Of a stretch of 60,175 bases of DNA, positions 21,702-60,175 are shown piece by piece. Each line of letters opens with the position of its first letter. The stretch's first letter is position 1. Where the stretch lies: positions 1-60,175 of the IMG/VR virus record IMGVR_UViG_3300044801_000195. One strand, written 5' to 3'. The position numbers and the translations under genes were made by a program. The stretch comes from a virus. The notes beneath the pieces are model-generated. The model ran no database searches. It was not told the origin of the DNA and saw nothing but the letters and a program-made list of their open reading frames with translations.

Positions 21702-23123
21702 ATGCGCCTTTTGAAGCTGGCGCTGGCAGCTCTGCTGCTGGCGGGCCAGGCCCTACCAGGCTTTGCCCAAACTTATCCGATCACGACGCCTGTCTATATC
21801 CCGAGCGCCATTGAGCAGCCGGCGGTGTGCATCGCGGCCTGCGATGTCGTGTTTACCGTCTCCGGTGTCTCGACGGTTACTTTGCAGCTCGTCGGCACGC
21901 CGGCGGCGATCACTGCTTCGGTGCAGGGCACCAACGAGGCGCAGAGCGTTGCCGCGCCGACCTGGACCGCGCTGAACATGATCCCGGTCAATGGCGGCTC
22001 CGCGGTCACTTCAACCTCAGCGGTTGGGTTCTGGACCGTCAACACCACCGGCCTGACCAAGGTGCGGGCGCATGTCTCCGCGCTGACGGGTTCCGTTACC
22101 GTCAACATGACGGGTTCGAGCGGCGGTACGGTTTCGTTTTCGTCGAACTCCGTGGTCCTGGCCGACGTGGAAGCCAATATCGCGCCTGGCACCGCGCCGG
22201 CGAAAGCGGCCATCGTCGGCGGCGTCTATAACTCGGCGCTGCCCACGGCGACCAATGGTCAAACCGTGGCAATTCAGCTCAACGCTTCCGGCGAGCAGCT
22301 CGTTGCCAGCCCGAATCTTGAGATGGCCATTGCGCCCGGCACCGCGCCGGCAAAGGCCCTTGCCGTCGGCGGCGTCTATAACTCGGCGCTGCCCACGGCG
22401 ACCAATGGTCAAACCGTGGCAATTCAGCTCAACGCTTCCGGCGAGCAGCTCGTTGCCAGCCCGAATCTTGAGATGGCCATTGCGCCCGGCACCGCGCCGG
22501 CAAAGGCCCTTGCCGCGGGTGGCGTCTATAACTCGGCGGCGCCCACGCTGACCAATGGACAGACGGCTGCGTTGCAGCTCAACGCCTCGGGACAGCTCAT
22601 CACCTCCACCACGAACACGGAAGGTGTAATCACCGCGGCCACCGCTCCTACTAAGATGCAAGTGAGTGGCGCGGTTTACAATTCTTCCCCGCCCTCGCTT
22701 TCGACCGGACAGAGCGCGGCATTGCAGCTCGATAACGACGGTTCACTTTATATGAACCTCCGCGACGACACAGTAGTCGCGGCGGACCCCTGCCAAAGCC
22801 GCAATGTCGCGAAGTCTTCGGTGCTATCGAATATCGGTTCTGCTACGACCACGGCGCTAGTGGCGGTTTCTGGTGTCAAAGCCATTTACGTTTGCGGTAT
22901 TTCGATAGTTACGGGCGCGGCGGATACTGTTTATCTGGAATACGGCACAAGCACGAACTGCACGGGAACAACGGCGCTCACCCCAACTTATATAGCATCG
23001 TCTCAGATAAACATCGGTTGGGGCGGCGGAACGGTTGTAACAGCCCCCGCATCGCAGGGGCTGTGCGCGGTATCCACCGGTACGAATGCCCAGCAAGTGC
23101 TTGTCAGCTACGTTCAGCAGTAA
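21702..23123 (+). CDS. Secreted repeat protein in head module
   Basis: 473 aa. Clear Sec signal peptide (MRLLKLALAALLLAGQALPG then FAQ). Residues ~160-345 contain 50-residue repeats built on GGVYNSALPTATNGQ and LQLNASG; two copies are identical in DNA (22215-22514). The GGVYNS...TDGQ..LQLD motif occurs in phage virion proteins, so this may be a decoration or host-contact protein. A signal peptide in a head-module gene is unusual. Confidence 0.75.
   Translation: MRLLKLALAALLLAGQALPGFAQTYPITTPVYIPSAIEQPAVCIAACDVVFTVSGVSTVTLQLVGTPAAITASVQGTNEAQSVAAPTWTALNMIPVNGGSAVTSTSAVGFWTVNTTGLTKVRAHVSALTGSVTVNMTGSSGGTVSFSSNSVVLADVEANIAPGTAPAKAAIVGGVYNSALPTATNGQTVAIQLNASGEQLVASPNLEMAIAPGTAPAKALAVGGVYNSALPTATNGQTVAIQLNASGEQLVASPNLEMAIAPGTAPAKALAAGGVYNSAAPTLTNGQTAALQLNASGQLITSTTNTEGVITAATAPTKMQVSGAVYNSSPPSLSTGQSAALQLDNDGSLYMNLRDDTVVAADPCQSRNVAKSSVLSNIGSATTTALVAVSGVKAIYVCGISIVTGAADTVYLEYGTSTNCTGTTALTPTYIASSQINIGWGGGTVVTAPASQGLCAVSTGTNAQQVLVSYVQQ
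22215..22514 (+). repeat. Exact 150-bp tandem duplication
   Basis: 22215-22364 and 22365-22514 are identical by inspection, each encoding 50 residues in frame. Diverged copies precede and follow. Zero divergence implies a recent duplication or ongoing copy-number change. Confidence 0.95.
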
Positions 23124-50550: not shown

Positions 50551-51285
50551 TTAACCTGATGTTTTGTGACGCTGCAACACCACGTAGACAGTTGCGATGC
50601 TGCGGCCCAACGTTGTCGCGATGGCTTTGGGCGATATCCCGGTCGCGCGCATTTTCAGGATGCGGTCGATATCGGCTGGAATCAAGTTGCGGCGGCGCGA
50701 TTTTCTGGGAGCCAATTTGCCGAATCGCCGGGCGGCGGAGAGCTGGAAGGCACTGACACCGATTGACCGGCATATTTCGGCATCGTTTAAATCAGTGGCC
50801 TGCAGGCACGCGGCGGCCCCTATGCACCAGGTGCGAGCGGGCCGGGAGTTTGTCGTTTTGCCGCGCCTATTTCTGGGCACGACCTGCAACGTGTGCTTGA
50901 TTATAATCTGCGATACGGATTGACGGGAAACCCCCAATAACGTGGCGACCTCAACAGGGCGCGATCCTAGATCTAGGAGGGATCGTATCCGGTCTACTTG
51001 GGTGCTGGCCACGATGCCCTTAGCCGTTTTCCAGCGGTCGGGCCAGACCGCCGGAGGTGTGGTTTCCAGGAGTTGAATTAACCACAGTACCTCCAGCGGT
51101 ACGTTCCGGCCCGACAACCAATCGTCAACCGAACTATGTCCTCGCTCAAAGGCGGCCTGCAATTTTTGGGCGAGGCCGTCCGGGCCGAACAGAACCCCGC
51201 AACGGGCGCGAAAGCGCGGAACGGCAACTCTGCGGACATCGCGCATAGCTGAGGAGCGGTTTCGCGGAGATTTTGGAGAATGCAT
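50551..51285 (-). CDS. DNA-binding protein with repeated HTH elements
   Basis: 244 aa from ATG 51285 (GGAG upstream). Three helix-turn-helix-like segments: SRPVEVATLLGVSRQSVSQI, LNDAEICRSIGVSAFQLSAA and GISPKAIATTLGRSIATVYV, the last like resolvase HTH_7. The N-terminal third is basic. Likely a regulator or recombination accessory protein; no catalytic motif seen. Its leader is highly structured (51306-51370). Confidence 0.7.
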   Translation of the reverse strand: MHSPKSPRNRSSAMRDVRRVAVPRFRARCGVLFGPDGLAQKLQAAFERGHSSVDDWLSGRNVPLEVLWLIQLLETTPPAVWPDRWKTAKGIVASTQVDRIRSLLDLGSRPVEVATLLGVSRQSVSQIIIKHTLQVVPRNRRGKTTNSRPARTWCIGAAACLQATDLNDAEICRSIGVSAFQLSAARRFGKLAPRKSRRRNLIPADIDRILKMRATGISPKAIATTLGRSIATVYVVLQRHKTSG

Positions 51286-51305
51286 TGTCTGCTCTCCTTC
51301 ATGCC

Positions 51306-51370
51306 GTGAGATAAGCCTCACGCCGAAACCGCCAGTAGCGGCTTGGGGGTGAGGCCCAGTTAAGGGCCTC
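51306..51370 (-). promoter_or_regulatory. Structured mRNA leader with three hairpins
   Basis: Three consecutive inverted repeats: GAGGCCC/GGGCCTC (51351-51370), CCGC/GCGG (51329-51341) and CGTGAG/CTCACG (51305-51322). They fill nearly all the gap before the HTH gene. The first follows the preceding stop closely and has no T-run. Possible processing or regulatory RNA. Confidence 0.55.
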
Positions 51371-51689: not shown

Positions 51690-51893
51690 TTAGTGGTTGT
51701 TGCCATCCGTCCACCAATCGTCATTCTCCCAGATCGACCGGAATGACGATGCGTCTGACGCTTTCTCGGCGATGCGCTTGATTTCGTCGCGCGAGATGTT
51801 GAAACCGCAGTGAGTTTCAACCGCAATCGCGAAACCAGCAGATGATTGGGTGTATTCAGCGTAGATATTTTCGAGTGTCATAGTGATATCCAT
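51690..51893 (-). CDS. Small protein directly after the hammerhead ribozyme
   Basis: 67 aa from ATG 51893, or 63 aa from ATG 51881; neither has a good Shine-Dalgarno. ENIYAEYTQSSAGFAIAVET, CGFNISRDEIKRIAEKASDA, SIWENDDWWTDGNNH. No family recognised. The start codon is 11 nt below the end of ribozyme stem III, so self-cleavage would set the 5' end of this message. Confidence 0.6.
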   Translation of the reverse strand: MDITMTLENIYAEYTQSSAGFAIAVETHCGFNISRDEIKRIAEKASDASSFRSIWENDDWWTDGNNH

Positions 51894-51903
51894 TCGGTTG
51901 TTT

Positions 51904-51956
51904 CACTGTTTCGCCGTTTCCGGCTCATCAGGCAGGGCGCGCACCCTGCGACAGTA
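51904..51956 (-). ncRNA. Type III hammerhead ribozyme
   Basis: Read on the minus strand. Stem III 51956-51951 pairs with 51909-51904 (6 bp, one G-U). The cleavage triplet GUC ends at 51950. Stem I GCAGGG/CCCUGC (51949-51944, 51937-51932) is closed by a 6-nt loop. The core CUGAUGA is at 51931-51925. Stem II GCCG/CGGC (51924-51913) has a GAAA tetraloop. Core GAA is at 51912-51910, and A at 51909 pairs with the U of GUC. Every invariant hammerhead nucleotide is present. Predicted cleavage is between 51950 and 51949. Stems I and II are closed and III is open, so it is type III. A strong promoter lies ~130 nt upstream. Confidence 0.93.
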
Positions 51957-52082
51957 TTTGTTTTCCGGTGAGGCCGGTTGGCCTTCCATCGGAGCTCTAC
52001 CCTCCGATCCTCTCACCATGGGCTTCCCGGTCTGGTTTGTTGGCTCCTGCCACGCTCCCCTCGCCGCCCTGTCTGTAGGATT

Positions 52083-52111
52083 AATATACGTGTTCACAGT
52101 GATCACGTCAA
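52083..52111 (-). promoter_or_regulatory. Strong sigma70-like promoter for ribozyme transcript
   Basis: TTGACG (52111-52106), exactly 17 nt, TATATT (52088-52083). The spacer contains the palindrome GTGATCAC and a GTG...CAC dyad, possibly an operator. Predicted start is near 52076, giving a ~125-nt leader 5' of the cleavage site. That leader has a 7-bp hairpin (ATCGGAG/CTCCGAT). Confidence 0.75.
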
Positions 52112-52131: not shown

Positions 52132-52359
52132 TCACTTTTTTGTGATAGAGCGAAGTTTCTGCGTTGCTGCATTCGGCCATAGTGTTGCAGCTATCGGGCG
52201 ATCCGCCGCTTCCGTCACTTTCATGAGCGCCCGCTCAATCAAGCGCCGGACCATCTCGGTGTTGTCCGGAACGTCATCTTCGTGCCGCCTCAGCTCATTG
52301 AGATCGGCGAAAAAGCGCTCGTCGACGCGCATCCGGAAGGATTGACGTTCTTTTTTCAT
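52132..52359 (-). CDS. Ribbon-helix-helix regulator
   Basis: 75 aa from ATG 52359. KKERQSFRMRVDERFFADLN, ELRRHEDDVPDNTEMVRRLI, ERAL: the beta strand plus two helices of Arc/MetJ-type proteins. It ends 21 nt upstream of the ribozyme promoter, whose spacer is palindromic, so it is a natural candidate regulator of that promoter. Confidence 0.78.
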   Translation of the reverse strand: MKKERQSFRMRVDERFFADLNELRRHEDDVPDNTEMVRRLIERALMKVTEAADRPIAATLWPNAATQKLRSITKK

Positions 52360-53931: not shown

Positions 53932-53995
53932 ATTCACGCCTGCCCCGCTCAAAAATTTTCTTGGCCGAGCCCTACGCCCGAAGCGTAAACAAAGC

Positions 53996-54046
53996 GTTTC
54001 ATTCGCATACCGTTCGCCGTTTCGTTCGCCTTGGTTTCATTCGCAA
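53996..54046 (+). other. Integrase arm-type repeats, left of attP core
   Basis: GTTTCATTCGCATA-C-CGTTCGCC (53996-54018), then GTTTCGTTCGCC (54019-54030) and GTTTCATTCGCAA (54034-54046). The 23-nt unit recurs with one mismatch on the other side of the core at 54214-54236. Spacing around the tRNA core fits arm-binding sites of a lambda-type integrase. Confidence 0.65.
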
Positions 54047-54066
54047 GCTTAACTCATTGATTTTAT

Positions 54067-54116
54067 TGGTCGGGGCGGCGTGATTCGAACACGCGACCCT
54101 CTGGTCCCAAACCAGA
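54067..54116 (-). other. attP core: 3' half of tRNA-Pro(UGG)
   Basis: On the minus strand the sequence reads through the tRNA-Pro anticodon arm (stem CTGG/CCAG, loop with anticodon TGG), the variable loop, a T arm with GTTCGAATC, the acceptor strand CGCCCCGA and CCA at 54069-54067. No 5' half is present, so it is a tRNA-mimicking attachment core that restores the host tRNA on integration. An intact attP means the sequence is the excised or virion form. Confidence 0.88.
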
Positions 54117-54163
54117 ATGACGCCCCAAGCAGAATCCCGCCATTATTGATAATGCACATTAAT

Positions 54164-55384
54164 TTACCCTGACTTTGCGCGGAATGGGATCACTTCACCC
54201 CCCTTTTGGAGCCGTTTCATTCGCATATCGTTCGCCAAATTCCGTGACTTCGGCGCCACGGCGGAAGCGGCATTTTGCTGAAAGTCGGGACGATGATGTG
54301 CATAACTTTCGAGCTGCTGGACCGTCATGCCGAGATAACCGGCGGCTTCCCAGTTATCGACACCGGCCTGCATCAGCCAGGTCGCCGCGGTATGCCGGAA
54401 GCCATGCAGCACGAAATGCTGCTCCAGCGCGGCTTCCTTGCGGACGCCCGTCCAGCTCCGGCGCAGCTTTTTGATGGGCTCGCCGTTGTAATGAATCACC
54501 GATGAAATCCCAGCCGCAAGATCGGCGCGCCGCCAGCGCACTAGGTGAGGCAACAGCTTGCGGTGTATCCGGATTGGCGGCTGCCGCTTTTTGGTCTCCG
54601 CCTTGCTGGCACCCTTGCGGTACAAGATGCCCCGGCTGAGATCGATGTAACCGGTATCGGGCGAGCGCACCCAGCGCAGGCCCAGGATGGCGCCAGAGCG
54701 GGTGCCGGTATAGACGCCAATCAGAATGACACGCGCGACGTGCCGGGCCTCGGGACGCCGCCTCACGGCCCACAGAAGGGCGGCTACTTCCTCGACCGAC
54801 GCGCATACTTCGCGCGCCGGCATCGGCGATGGAACCGTGACTTTGGGCAGCACCTTCAGCGGCTTTTCGGCATGCCAGAACCGGATCGCGGCGCGCAGCG
54901 TGATAAGCTCATTGCGCGCGGCCGTTTTCATGGGCTTGCCGGGCACGGCTTGCGAAGTTCGGAAATCGACATATTCCTGACAGATGCTCGCGCGGATGTC
55001 GGTTGCCGGTTCGCCGTCCTCGACATAATAGACCAGCTTCTCTCCCCAGAACCGGACCAGCCGCTTGATTTCGCTTCTGGCCACTTCCGGCCGGCTGTGG
55101 TGCGGAACGCTATGGTCGAGATACCAATCGAGCACCTGAACTACCGCGACGCTGGCGCCCGCCTTGCCGGTTTTGGGAGCTTCCGGCCCGGCACCGGCGA
55201 GACAAGCGTTAAGCGCTGACTCCCCACCGCCGATGTAGGCGGCGAGCGCCTCCGCGGCGCGTTTAGTTTCGCCTTCAACGATGCCTGTATAGATTTTTGT
55301 GCCGCCGTCAAGGATGACCCAGACGGACTCTCTTCCCGGCCGGATTTCCAGCCAAAGCCGGGGCGGTTTTCTTTTCCTTGGCAT
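54164..55384 (-). CDS. int: Tyrosine integrase
   Basis: 406 aa. N-terminal arm-binding and core-binding regions (LDWYLDHSVPHHSRPEVARS, GKPMKTAARNELITLRAAIR). The catalytic domain has Arg in YTGTRSGAILGLRW (~232), HGFRHTAATW (His-x-x-Arg, ~325), a His/Trp region and nucleophile Tyr in QLESYAHHRPDF (~360). It ends ~50 nt from the tRNA-Pro attP core, with an arm-type site inside its 3' end. Last gene of the leftward operon. Confidence 0.94.
   Translation of the reverse strand: MPRKRKPPRLWLEIRPGRESVWVILDGGTKIYTGIVEGETKRAAEALAAYIGGGESALNACLAGAGPEAPKTGKAGASVAVVQVLDWYLDHSVPHHSRPEVARSEIKRLVRFWGEKLVYYVEDGEPATDIRASICQEYVDFRTSQAVPGKPMKTAARNELITLRAAIRFWHAEKPLKVLPKVTVPSPMPAREVCASVEEVAALLWAVRRRPEARHVARVILIGVYTGTRSGAILGLRWVRSPDTGYIDLSRGILYRKGASKAETKKRQPPIRIHRKLLPHLVRWRRADLAAGISSVIHYNGEPIKKLRRSWTGVRKEAALEQHFVLHGFRHTAATWLMQAGVDNWEAAGYLGMTVQQLESYAHHRPDFQQNAASAVAPKSRNLANDMRMKRLQKGGEVIPFRAKSG
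54214..54236 (+). other. Integrase arm-type repeat, right of attP core
   Basis: 23-nt direct repeat of 53996-54018 with one mismatch (T for C). It lies within the last codons of the integrase gene. Confidence 0.6.
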
Positions 55385-56997: not shown

Positions 56998-57308
56998 TTC
57001 GCCGGCCTTTTCGTCCTGCCTTGACCGGCCGGCAACCCCCGGTTCCGCGCCAGCCTGCGATCGTGCTCCGGATCGATGACCCGTCCTTGGCCAGTCGACC
57101 CTTGGCGGTTCCGCGCAAAGCGTTTATCCTGCTTTGGATCGATGACCCGTCCTTGGCCAGTCGACCCTTGGCGGTTCCGCGCAAAGCGTTTATCCTGCTT
57201 TGGATCGATGACCCGTCCTTGGCCAGTCGACCCTTGGCGGTTCCGCGCAAAGCGTTTATCCTGCTTTGGATCGACGACTCTTCCCTGCTTGCCTTTCGTT
57301 TCGCTCAT
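56994..57308 (-). CDS. Basic 22-residue-repeat protein
   Basis: 104 aa composed almost entirely of four tandem 22-residue repeats (GRVIDPKQDKRFARNRQGST then GQ). The three middle units are identical in DNA (57070-57267). Strongly basic, no hydrophobic core, probably disordered and nucleic-acid binding. Confidence 0.65.
   Translation of the reverse strand: MSETKGKQGRVVDPKQDKRFARNRQGSTGQGRVIDPKQDKRFARNRQGSTGQGRVIDPKQDKRFARNRQGSTGQGRVIDPEHDRRLARNRGLPAGQGRTKRPAK
57070..57267 (-). repeat. Three identical 66-bp tandem repeats
   Basis: 57070-57135, 57136-57201 and 57202-57267 are identical; a diverged fourth copy starts at 57268. Length divisible by three keeps the frame. Confidence 0.95.
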
Positions 57309-59307: not shown

Positions 59308-60175
59308 GATGCGCACGCCTCCGCATCTTCAGCTGGCGCGGGTACTGGCTCGCCGTTTTCATCAACCTCATAGACCGGGCCGCAGCAGCCACGCGCCTTT
59401 ACCTTCTGCGGAAAATCTCCATTAGGATGCACGGCCATATCCGCGAGCGCCACAGGACAGCCGACGAACTTCTTGGGATCGGATACAAACTCTCGCGTCA
59501 TCGCTGGGGATGGAGAAAAATGCAACCCTTTGCCGCACTCCTGCTCGCCTCCATCCCAGTCAGGGGCAATCGGCGTTGTGCCGGGATGGTATGCAAATCC
59601 CCATGAAGAAATAAAGTCATGATTTACAGCCTTATATAGCATAGCTATGCCGTCATTGACGCTAACCCCATGGTAGTCGCACCACTCGTCAGGCGTTGAG
59701 CGTGCGACTACTGTCTGCTTTCCGCCTTCAACTTTCGCGTCTCCATCGATCAGGATGGAAACATTCGCTGAGGCAAAGGCAATCACTTTGCCGAACAATG
59801 ATAACTGTGCGTAGCCCCTCGCTTCAACGCGCGGCTGGCTGCTGCCCCACGCTTCAACGCGCGGCTGGCTGCTGCCCCACGCTACGACGCTCGGCTGGCT
59901 GCTGCCCCACGCTACGACGCGCGGCTGGCTGCTGTCCCTCGCTTCAACGCGCGGCTGGCTGCTGCCCCTCGCTTCAACGCTCGGCTGGCTGCTGCCCCAC
60001 GCTTCAACGCGCGGCTGGCTGCTGCCCCACGCTTCAACGCTCGGCTGGCTGCTGTCCCACGCTTCAACGCTCGGCTGGCTGCTGTCCCTCGCTTCAACGC
60101 GCGGCTGGCTGCTGTCCCTCGCTTCAACGCGCGGCTGGCTGCTGCCCCTCGCTTCAACGCTCGGCTGGCTGCTGC
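59304..60175 (-). CDS. Decapeptide-repeat protein, C-terminal half
   Basis: Continues the gene begun at 500 on the left edge. From the right end inward come about twelve decapeptides, then GYAQLSLFGKVIAFASANVS and a globular domain of ~150 residues: STPDEWCDYHGVSVNDGIAM, LYKAVNHDFISSWGFAYHPG, APDWDGGEQECGKGLHFSPS, KARGCCGPVYEVDENGEPVP. This domain recurs at the end of xAxxSS-repeat proteins (I recall DUF7666). Its PDW, GLHF and CGPVYEVD motifs look enzymatic or binding but have no assigned role. A TTG at 59798 mimics a start but the frame is open far upstream. Confidence 0.85.
   Translation of the reverse strand, partial: SSQPSVEARGSSQPRVEARDSSQPRVEARDSSQPSVEAWDSSQPSVEAWGSSQPRVEAWGSSQPSVEARGSSQPRVEARDSSQPRVVAWGSSQPSVVAWGSSQPRVEAWGSSQPRVEARGYAQLSLFGKVIAFASANVSILIDGDAKVEGGKQTVVARSTPDEWCDYHGVSVNDGIAMLYKAVNHDFISSWGFAYHPGTTPIAPDWDGGEQECGKGLHFSPSPAMTREFVSDPKKFVGCPVALADMAVHPNGDFPQKVKARGCCGPVYEVDENGEPVPAPAEDAEACAS
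59812..60175 (-). repeat. 30-bp tandem repeat array, right part
   Basis: About twelve more copies of the unit seen at the left end, in the same register and minus-strand frame. The contig stops 6-7 nt into a unit. Confidence 0.95.

Follow-up and report, generated by a model that had tools for sequence, protein, structure and literature searches.

What does a hammerhead ribozyme do in front of a small gene of a temperate phage? Hammerheads in phages and prophages have been on record since 2010-2011 (PMC3088659, PMC6155905), and their function in bacteria and phages is stated as an open question (PMC6155905). In most cases the effect of a hammerhead on a single gene is hard to isolate, as the ribozymes lie inside operons. 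Here we describe a hammerhead found in 60,175 nucleotides of viral DNA (IMG/VR record IMGVR_UViG_3300044801_000195, hereafter the window). The element at 51956-51904 on the minus strand is a genuine type III hammerhead ribozyme, and it joins a large, already known population of phage hammerheads.

The phage and its ribozyme

The carrier is a temperate phage, to judge by its portal, capsid and integrase families and by an att-like site at a tRNA-Pro. The window encodes portal, major capsid, tail lysozyme and primase-helicase-like proteins, together with a tyrosine integrase whose nearest named relatives come from Rhizobium, Ochrobactrum and Sinorhizobium phages. A tRNA-Pro-like sequence follows immediately past the integrase gene, the same place relative to int as the attP of phage 16-3, and this presumed att site lies about 2.1 kb from the ribozyme. 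The segment at 53995-54236, directly after the 16-3-like integrase, holds a tRNA-Pro (UGG) with a seemingly intact 3′ half and a degenerate-looking 5′ half, and is probably attP. The GCGAATGAAACG repeats that flank the tRNA (53995-54018, 54034-54045 and 54213-54236) are possible arm sites of the integrase. One and the same 30-bp tandem array, in about 12 copies each time, stands at either end of the record (1-353 and 59814-60175). This points to a circular or circularly permuted genome, likely a circular one opened within a repeat that assembly failed to bridge. Further repeats are a 66-bp unit at 57070-57278 (3.2 copies, 99% matches) and a 150-bp unit at 22182-22609 (about 2.5 copies), the latter inside the structural gene region. 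No DNA similarity to phages or plasmids was found for the window.

Read along the minus strand from 51956 to 51904, the ribozyme is UACUGU-C-GCAGGGU(GCGC)GCCCUGC-CUGAUGA-GCCG(GAAA)CGGC-GAA-ACAGUG (Table 1). The invariant core is complete in the sequence and in the Rfam alignment, with CUGAUGA, GAA, the A15.1-U16.1 pair and H17 at the cleavage site. Stem I has six Watson-Crick pairs and a U.G closing pair, and stem III has five Watson-Crick pairs and one U.G. Stem III is open while stems I and II are closed by loops, which is the type III layout. Cleavage is predicted 3′ of C51950, between 51950 and 51949. An earlier note on this DNA had described the complete core, the three stems and this same cleavage site, and our re-reading of the sequence agrees with it in all important respects. 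The hammerhead is probably active and probably a fast cleaver.

Table 1. Features of the ribozyme locus, in window coordinates.
Feature	Position	Strand	Basis or remark
Type III hammerhead ribozyme, complete	51904..51956	-	Sequence, Rfam, fold, descriptor, covariance model
Stem III 5′ strand, UACUGU	51956-51951	-	Sequence
C at position 17 (H17)	C51950	-	Sequence
Stem-loop I, GCAGGGU-GCGC-GCCCUGC	51932..51949	-	Sequence; compensatory changes keep the pairing in relatives
Core CUGAUGA	51925..51931	-	Sequence; nearly invariant across the 42-sequence alignment
Stem-loop II, GCCG-GAAA-CGGC	51913..51924	-	Sequence; alignment of relatives
Core GAA, then A51909 pairing with U51951 at the base of stem III	51910..51912	-	Sequence
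Stem III 3′ strand, ACAGUG	51909-51904	-	Sequence
Leader of about 127 nt, releasable by cleavage, with a 2′,3′-cyclic phosphate end	51950..52076	-	Inferred from promoter and cleavage site
Sigma-70-like promoter, TTGACG-N17-TATATT	52083..52111	-	10/12 consensus matches
21-bp near-palindrome, arms agreeing at 9/10 positions	52088..52108	.	Probable repressor operator
First gene 3′ of the ribozyme, 67 aa (63 aa from 51881)	51690..51893	-	Conserved C-terminal IWENDDWWTDG
Second small gene, 74 aa	51376..51600	-	Own GGAG ribosome-binding site
Helix-turn-helix DNA-binding protein	50551..51321	-	Probably in the ribozyme's transcription unit
75-aa protein just upstream of the promoter	52132..52359	-	

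A default Rfam scan of the window reports nothing, because the site scores 45.1 bits against RF00008 (Hammerhead_3), 3.4 bits short of the gathering score of 48.5 bits, which is a curation threshold and not a mechanistic feature. The covariance search that the earlier note had proposed as a check nevertheless matches this model, in a full-length alignment (1-54) with an E-value of 1.5e-8 in 801 bases and 1.1e-6 in the whole window. A subclass covariance model built from 41 other viral hammerheads, with the window sequence left out, gives the site 65.1 bits (E 1.1e-15, filters off), and under the same settings it finds no other ribozyme in the window. The next-best match of this model, 51175-51225 on the plus strand with 18.8 bits, lacks CUGAUGA. 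A loose descriptor that requires the core and paired stems picks out a single site in the 60-kb window, 51904-51956; random sequence of the window's G+C, 120 Mb in all, contains no match. Finally, the minimum-energy secondary structure of the isolated 65-nt segment is the hammerhead (z = -2.8), and one shuffle in 200 folds as well.

A common subclass in viral contigs

How unusual is this ribozyme? A pattern scan of IMG/VR returned at least 120 stretches, and all counts of viral hammerheads given here are among the matches listed. With a pairing descriptor, the fetched loci contain at least 119 type III hammerhead sites, the window copy included. The exact geometry of the window ribozyme, with an 18-nt stem-loop I and a 12-nt stem-loop II, recurs in 43 of 104 distinct hammerheads among the matches listed and is the commonest subclass. 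Most of these 43 carry U-GNGN-R in loop I and NAAA in loop II, a signature that the window ribozyme keeps (UGCGCG with GAAA). By the pattern used and among the matches listed, viral contigs carry this sTRSV-like form, with its short NAAA loop II, more often than any other.

We aligned 42 hammerheads of the subclass among the matches listed, again counting that of the window. Standard pairs fill 98.7% of the pair cells, and double changes occupy 203 cells where shuffles give about 58. The earlier note had named homologues lacking core conservation or compensatory stem changes as evidence against its reading; in the alignment the core holds and both sides have changed at 12 of the 16 pairs. The comparison is among members of one RNA class at different loci. 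A relative sharing the locus of the window ribozyme was not found, nor was any hammerhead in three capsid relatives or in phages 16-3 and POI1126.

The intact type III core, the phage leader and the good promoter, which the earlier note had read about 130 nt upstream as TTGACG-N17-TATATT and which is present at 52111-52083, all stand. The rarity that it implied does not, since viral contigs very commonly have a type III hammerhead directly in front of a start codon and phage and prophage cases are well documented (PMC3088659, PMC6155905).

Two side observations concern distribution. At least five of the viral contigs have two or three type III hammerheads each, many of them directly before a small gene, and resemble the prophage clusters described in PMC3088659. 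In a set of about 85,000 species genomes, an exact sTRSV-like pattern with a GAAA loop II occurs in 28 stretches, at least 18 of which are titled as Patescibacteria/CPR groups and one as Spartobacteria; eight of these genomes were checked and have 1-4 such ribozymes each.

Gene context and the proposed role of cleavage

The ribozyme belongs to a stretch of small orphan genes on the minus strand. The earlier note had a small frame starting 11 nt past stem III, and an ATG is indeed found there, at 51893, but the ATG at 51881, with GGA ahead of it, is an equally good or better start. The 67-aa gene has four viral relatives. No hammerhead was detected in these four, so the pairing of gene and ribozyme is not conserved. 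The protein has no relatives in bacterial genomes or in named phages, and a fold comparison gave no match. For the 74-aa, helix-turn-helix and upstream 75-aa genes no viral relatives were found. By eye the 75-aa protein looked like a ribbon-helix-helix repressor, a candidate that we rejected on a poor AlphaFold model (pLDDT 60) and the lack of any profile or PDB match.

Between the upstream gene and the ribozyme is a gap of about 175 nt that contains the promoter, a strong one, with transcription expected to start at about 52076. The near-palindrome ACGTGTTCACAGTGATCACGT exactly fills the spacer between the -35 and -10 elements. Its pattern occurs once against zero expected in shuffles, an expectation that serves as a guide only because the pattern was written post hoc. 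It is a probable operator, and a repressor-controlled promoter is the natural reading.

What, then, would cleavage achieve? We think it likely that an active type III hammerhead removes the 5′ leader here and leaves a hairpin-capped mRNA with a 5′-OH, a scheme in which transcription, cleavage, docking and the effect on expression are all inferred. RNA polymerase would start at the promoter and transcribe the leader and then the ribozyme, which would fold while emerging, with loop I probably docked onto the GAAA loop II in the manner of the sTRSV hammerhead. Cleavage 3′ of C51950 would free the leader with its cyclic phosphate, and the remaining accessory-gene mRNA (51893 to about 50551) would begin with a 5′-OH and fold into stem-loops I and II just ahead of the start codon. 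The most likely effects are that the 5′ end of the mRNA would be defined, that a structured leader able to hide the ribosome-binding site would be removed and that the message would be shielded from 5′-end-dependent decay, in a RiboJ-like layout. The whole series of promoter, probable operator, leader, ribozyme and first gene is packed into about 220 nt, which would let a reporter with a single core base changed reveal directly how cleavage affects the message. This clean arrangement for testing what phage hammerheads do is the value of the window ribozyme.

It is possible, although we favour it less, that the ribozyme is an active processing site, at which cleavage splits a read-through message (from 52359 and beyond) from the accessory genes while the nearby promoter is incidental. 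Perreault et al. put forward such a role for prophage hammerheads, which they found clustered between genes (PMC3088659), and the genes on both sides of the window ribozyme are on the minus strand. The surroundings of the relatives are also of this kind. Among the matches listed, a same-strand frame ends less than 100 nt upstream at 72 of 101 sites (median 34 nt in the measured set), and an ATG opening at least 40 codons lies within 80 nt on the 3′ side in 87 of 97 relatives (median 20 nt), against 39% of random places. With frames ending close upstream and an ATG close downstream, the common layout is that of an intergenic cut within an operon. The window departs from it, with the upstream frame ending about 175 nt away, the 10/12 promoter and its spacer palindrome in between, and only one ribozyme. 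Assuming a sigma-70-type consensus, from which other phages may differ, a promoter of 10/12 matches within 250 nt upstream is seen only in the window and at two others of the 101 sites among the matches listed, and at none of the 72 tightly packed ones. The promoter-proximal layout is thus a minority arrangement among the hammerheads listed.

Could the leader instead decide whether the ribozyme cuts? Cleavage might be governed by ribosomes translating a leader frame of 38 codons (ATG 52019 to TGA 51903) or by pairing of the leader's 5′ end with stem I (CAGGGCG with CGCCCUG), and we regard either form of regulation as improbable. The frame is open across the entire ribozyme, but so is a frame through 61 of 102 other viral hammerheads among the matches listed, and no good ribosome-binding site is visible for it. 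In the minimum-energy fold of the full leader, stem I and the core do pair with the leader's 5′ end, and in the 197-nt transcript the ribozyme fold makes up about 0.4% of the ensemble, which it exceeds by 3.4 kcal/mol, in a calculation of secondary structure only, with tertiary contacts, Mg2+ and co-transcriptional folding outside it. This penalty is ordinary: shuffled leaders give one as bad or worse in 144 of 200 cases. The leader-ribozyme duplex is weaker than that of most shuffled leaders, 420 of 500 of which form one as strong or stronger. An anti-ribozyme leader, which we had suspected from the minimum-energy fold, was dropped on these grounds.

That the element is a decayed, inactive copy or a chance match we hold to be very unlikely, for although it scores below the Rfam cut-off, is a single copy and has no detected counterpart in the relatives searched, its core is unchanged, its stems are perfect, 120 Mb of random sequence gave no match and an independent model scores it at 65 bits.

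Comparison with known systems

Leader removal by an active hammerhead, the reading that we prefer, can be set beside several known systems. The window ribozyme is like RF00008 in its core, three stems, open stem III and GUC cleavage site, and differs in its short loop II of 4 nt, which is longer in the model. Its stem III (CUGUC/GAAACAG) and its stem II, which is short and capped by a tetraloop, resemble those of the sTRSV hammerhead. The latter is also of type III, with different stem I and loop sequences.

Phage and prophage hammerheads, including those of Agrobacterium and Azorhizobium (Perreault 2011, PMC3088659; PMC6155905), share the temperate-phage setting with a nearby integrase and likewise directly precede a small orphan gene. 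Cleavage by related bacterial hammerheads is documented both in vitro and in E. coli (PMC3088659). Unlike the clustered prophage examples, the window ribozyme is single-copy and promoter-proximal, with its own promoter and probable operator.

In the haloviruses HF1/HF2 a hammerhead precedes the first gene of a transcript by 13 nt, and the 5′ end mapped for that transcript is within three nt of the cleavage site, which fits cleavage (PMC3088659). The window ribozyme is similarly a dozen nt before the first gene of its predicted transcript. HHphage, the hammerhead of these viruses, has unusual core insertions and an archaeal host, whereas the core described here is canonical.

RiboJ, a synthetic insulator, consists of the sTRSV hammerhead and a hairpin placed between promoter and gene, and in E. 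coli it raises transcript about 2-fold and protein 2-10-fold, tentatively via mRNA stability (PMC6206723). The window ribozyme likewise lies between a promoter (52111-52083) and an ATG (51893 or 51881); it is natural and has no separate added hairpin after it. By analogy, RiboJ and HF1/HF2 lend support to a leader-removal role. A bolder and rather doubtful extension is that the window holds a natural RiboJ, in which a phage hammerhead behind a repressor-controlled promoter fixes a 5′-OH, hairpin-capped accessory message whose expression is boosted or decoupled from the leader. If true, this would give prokaryotic phage hammerheads a concrete role in gene expression.
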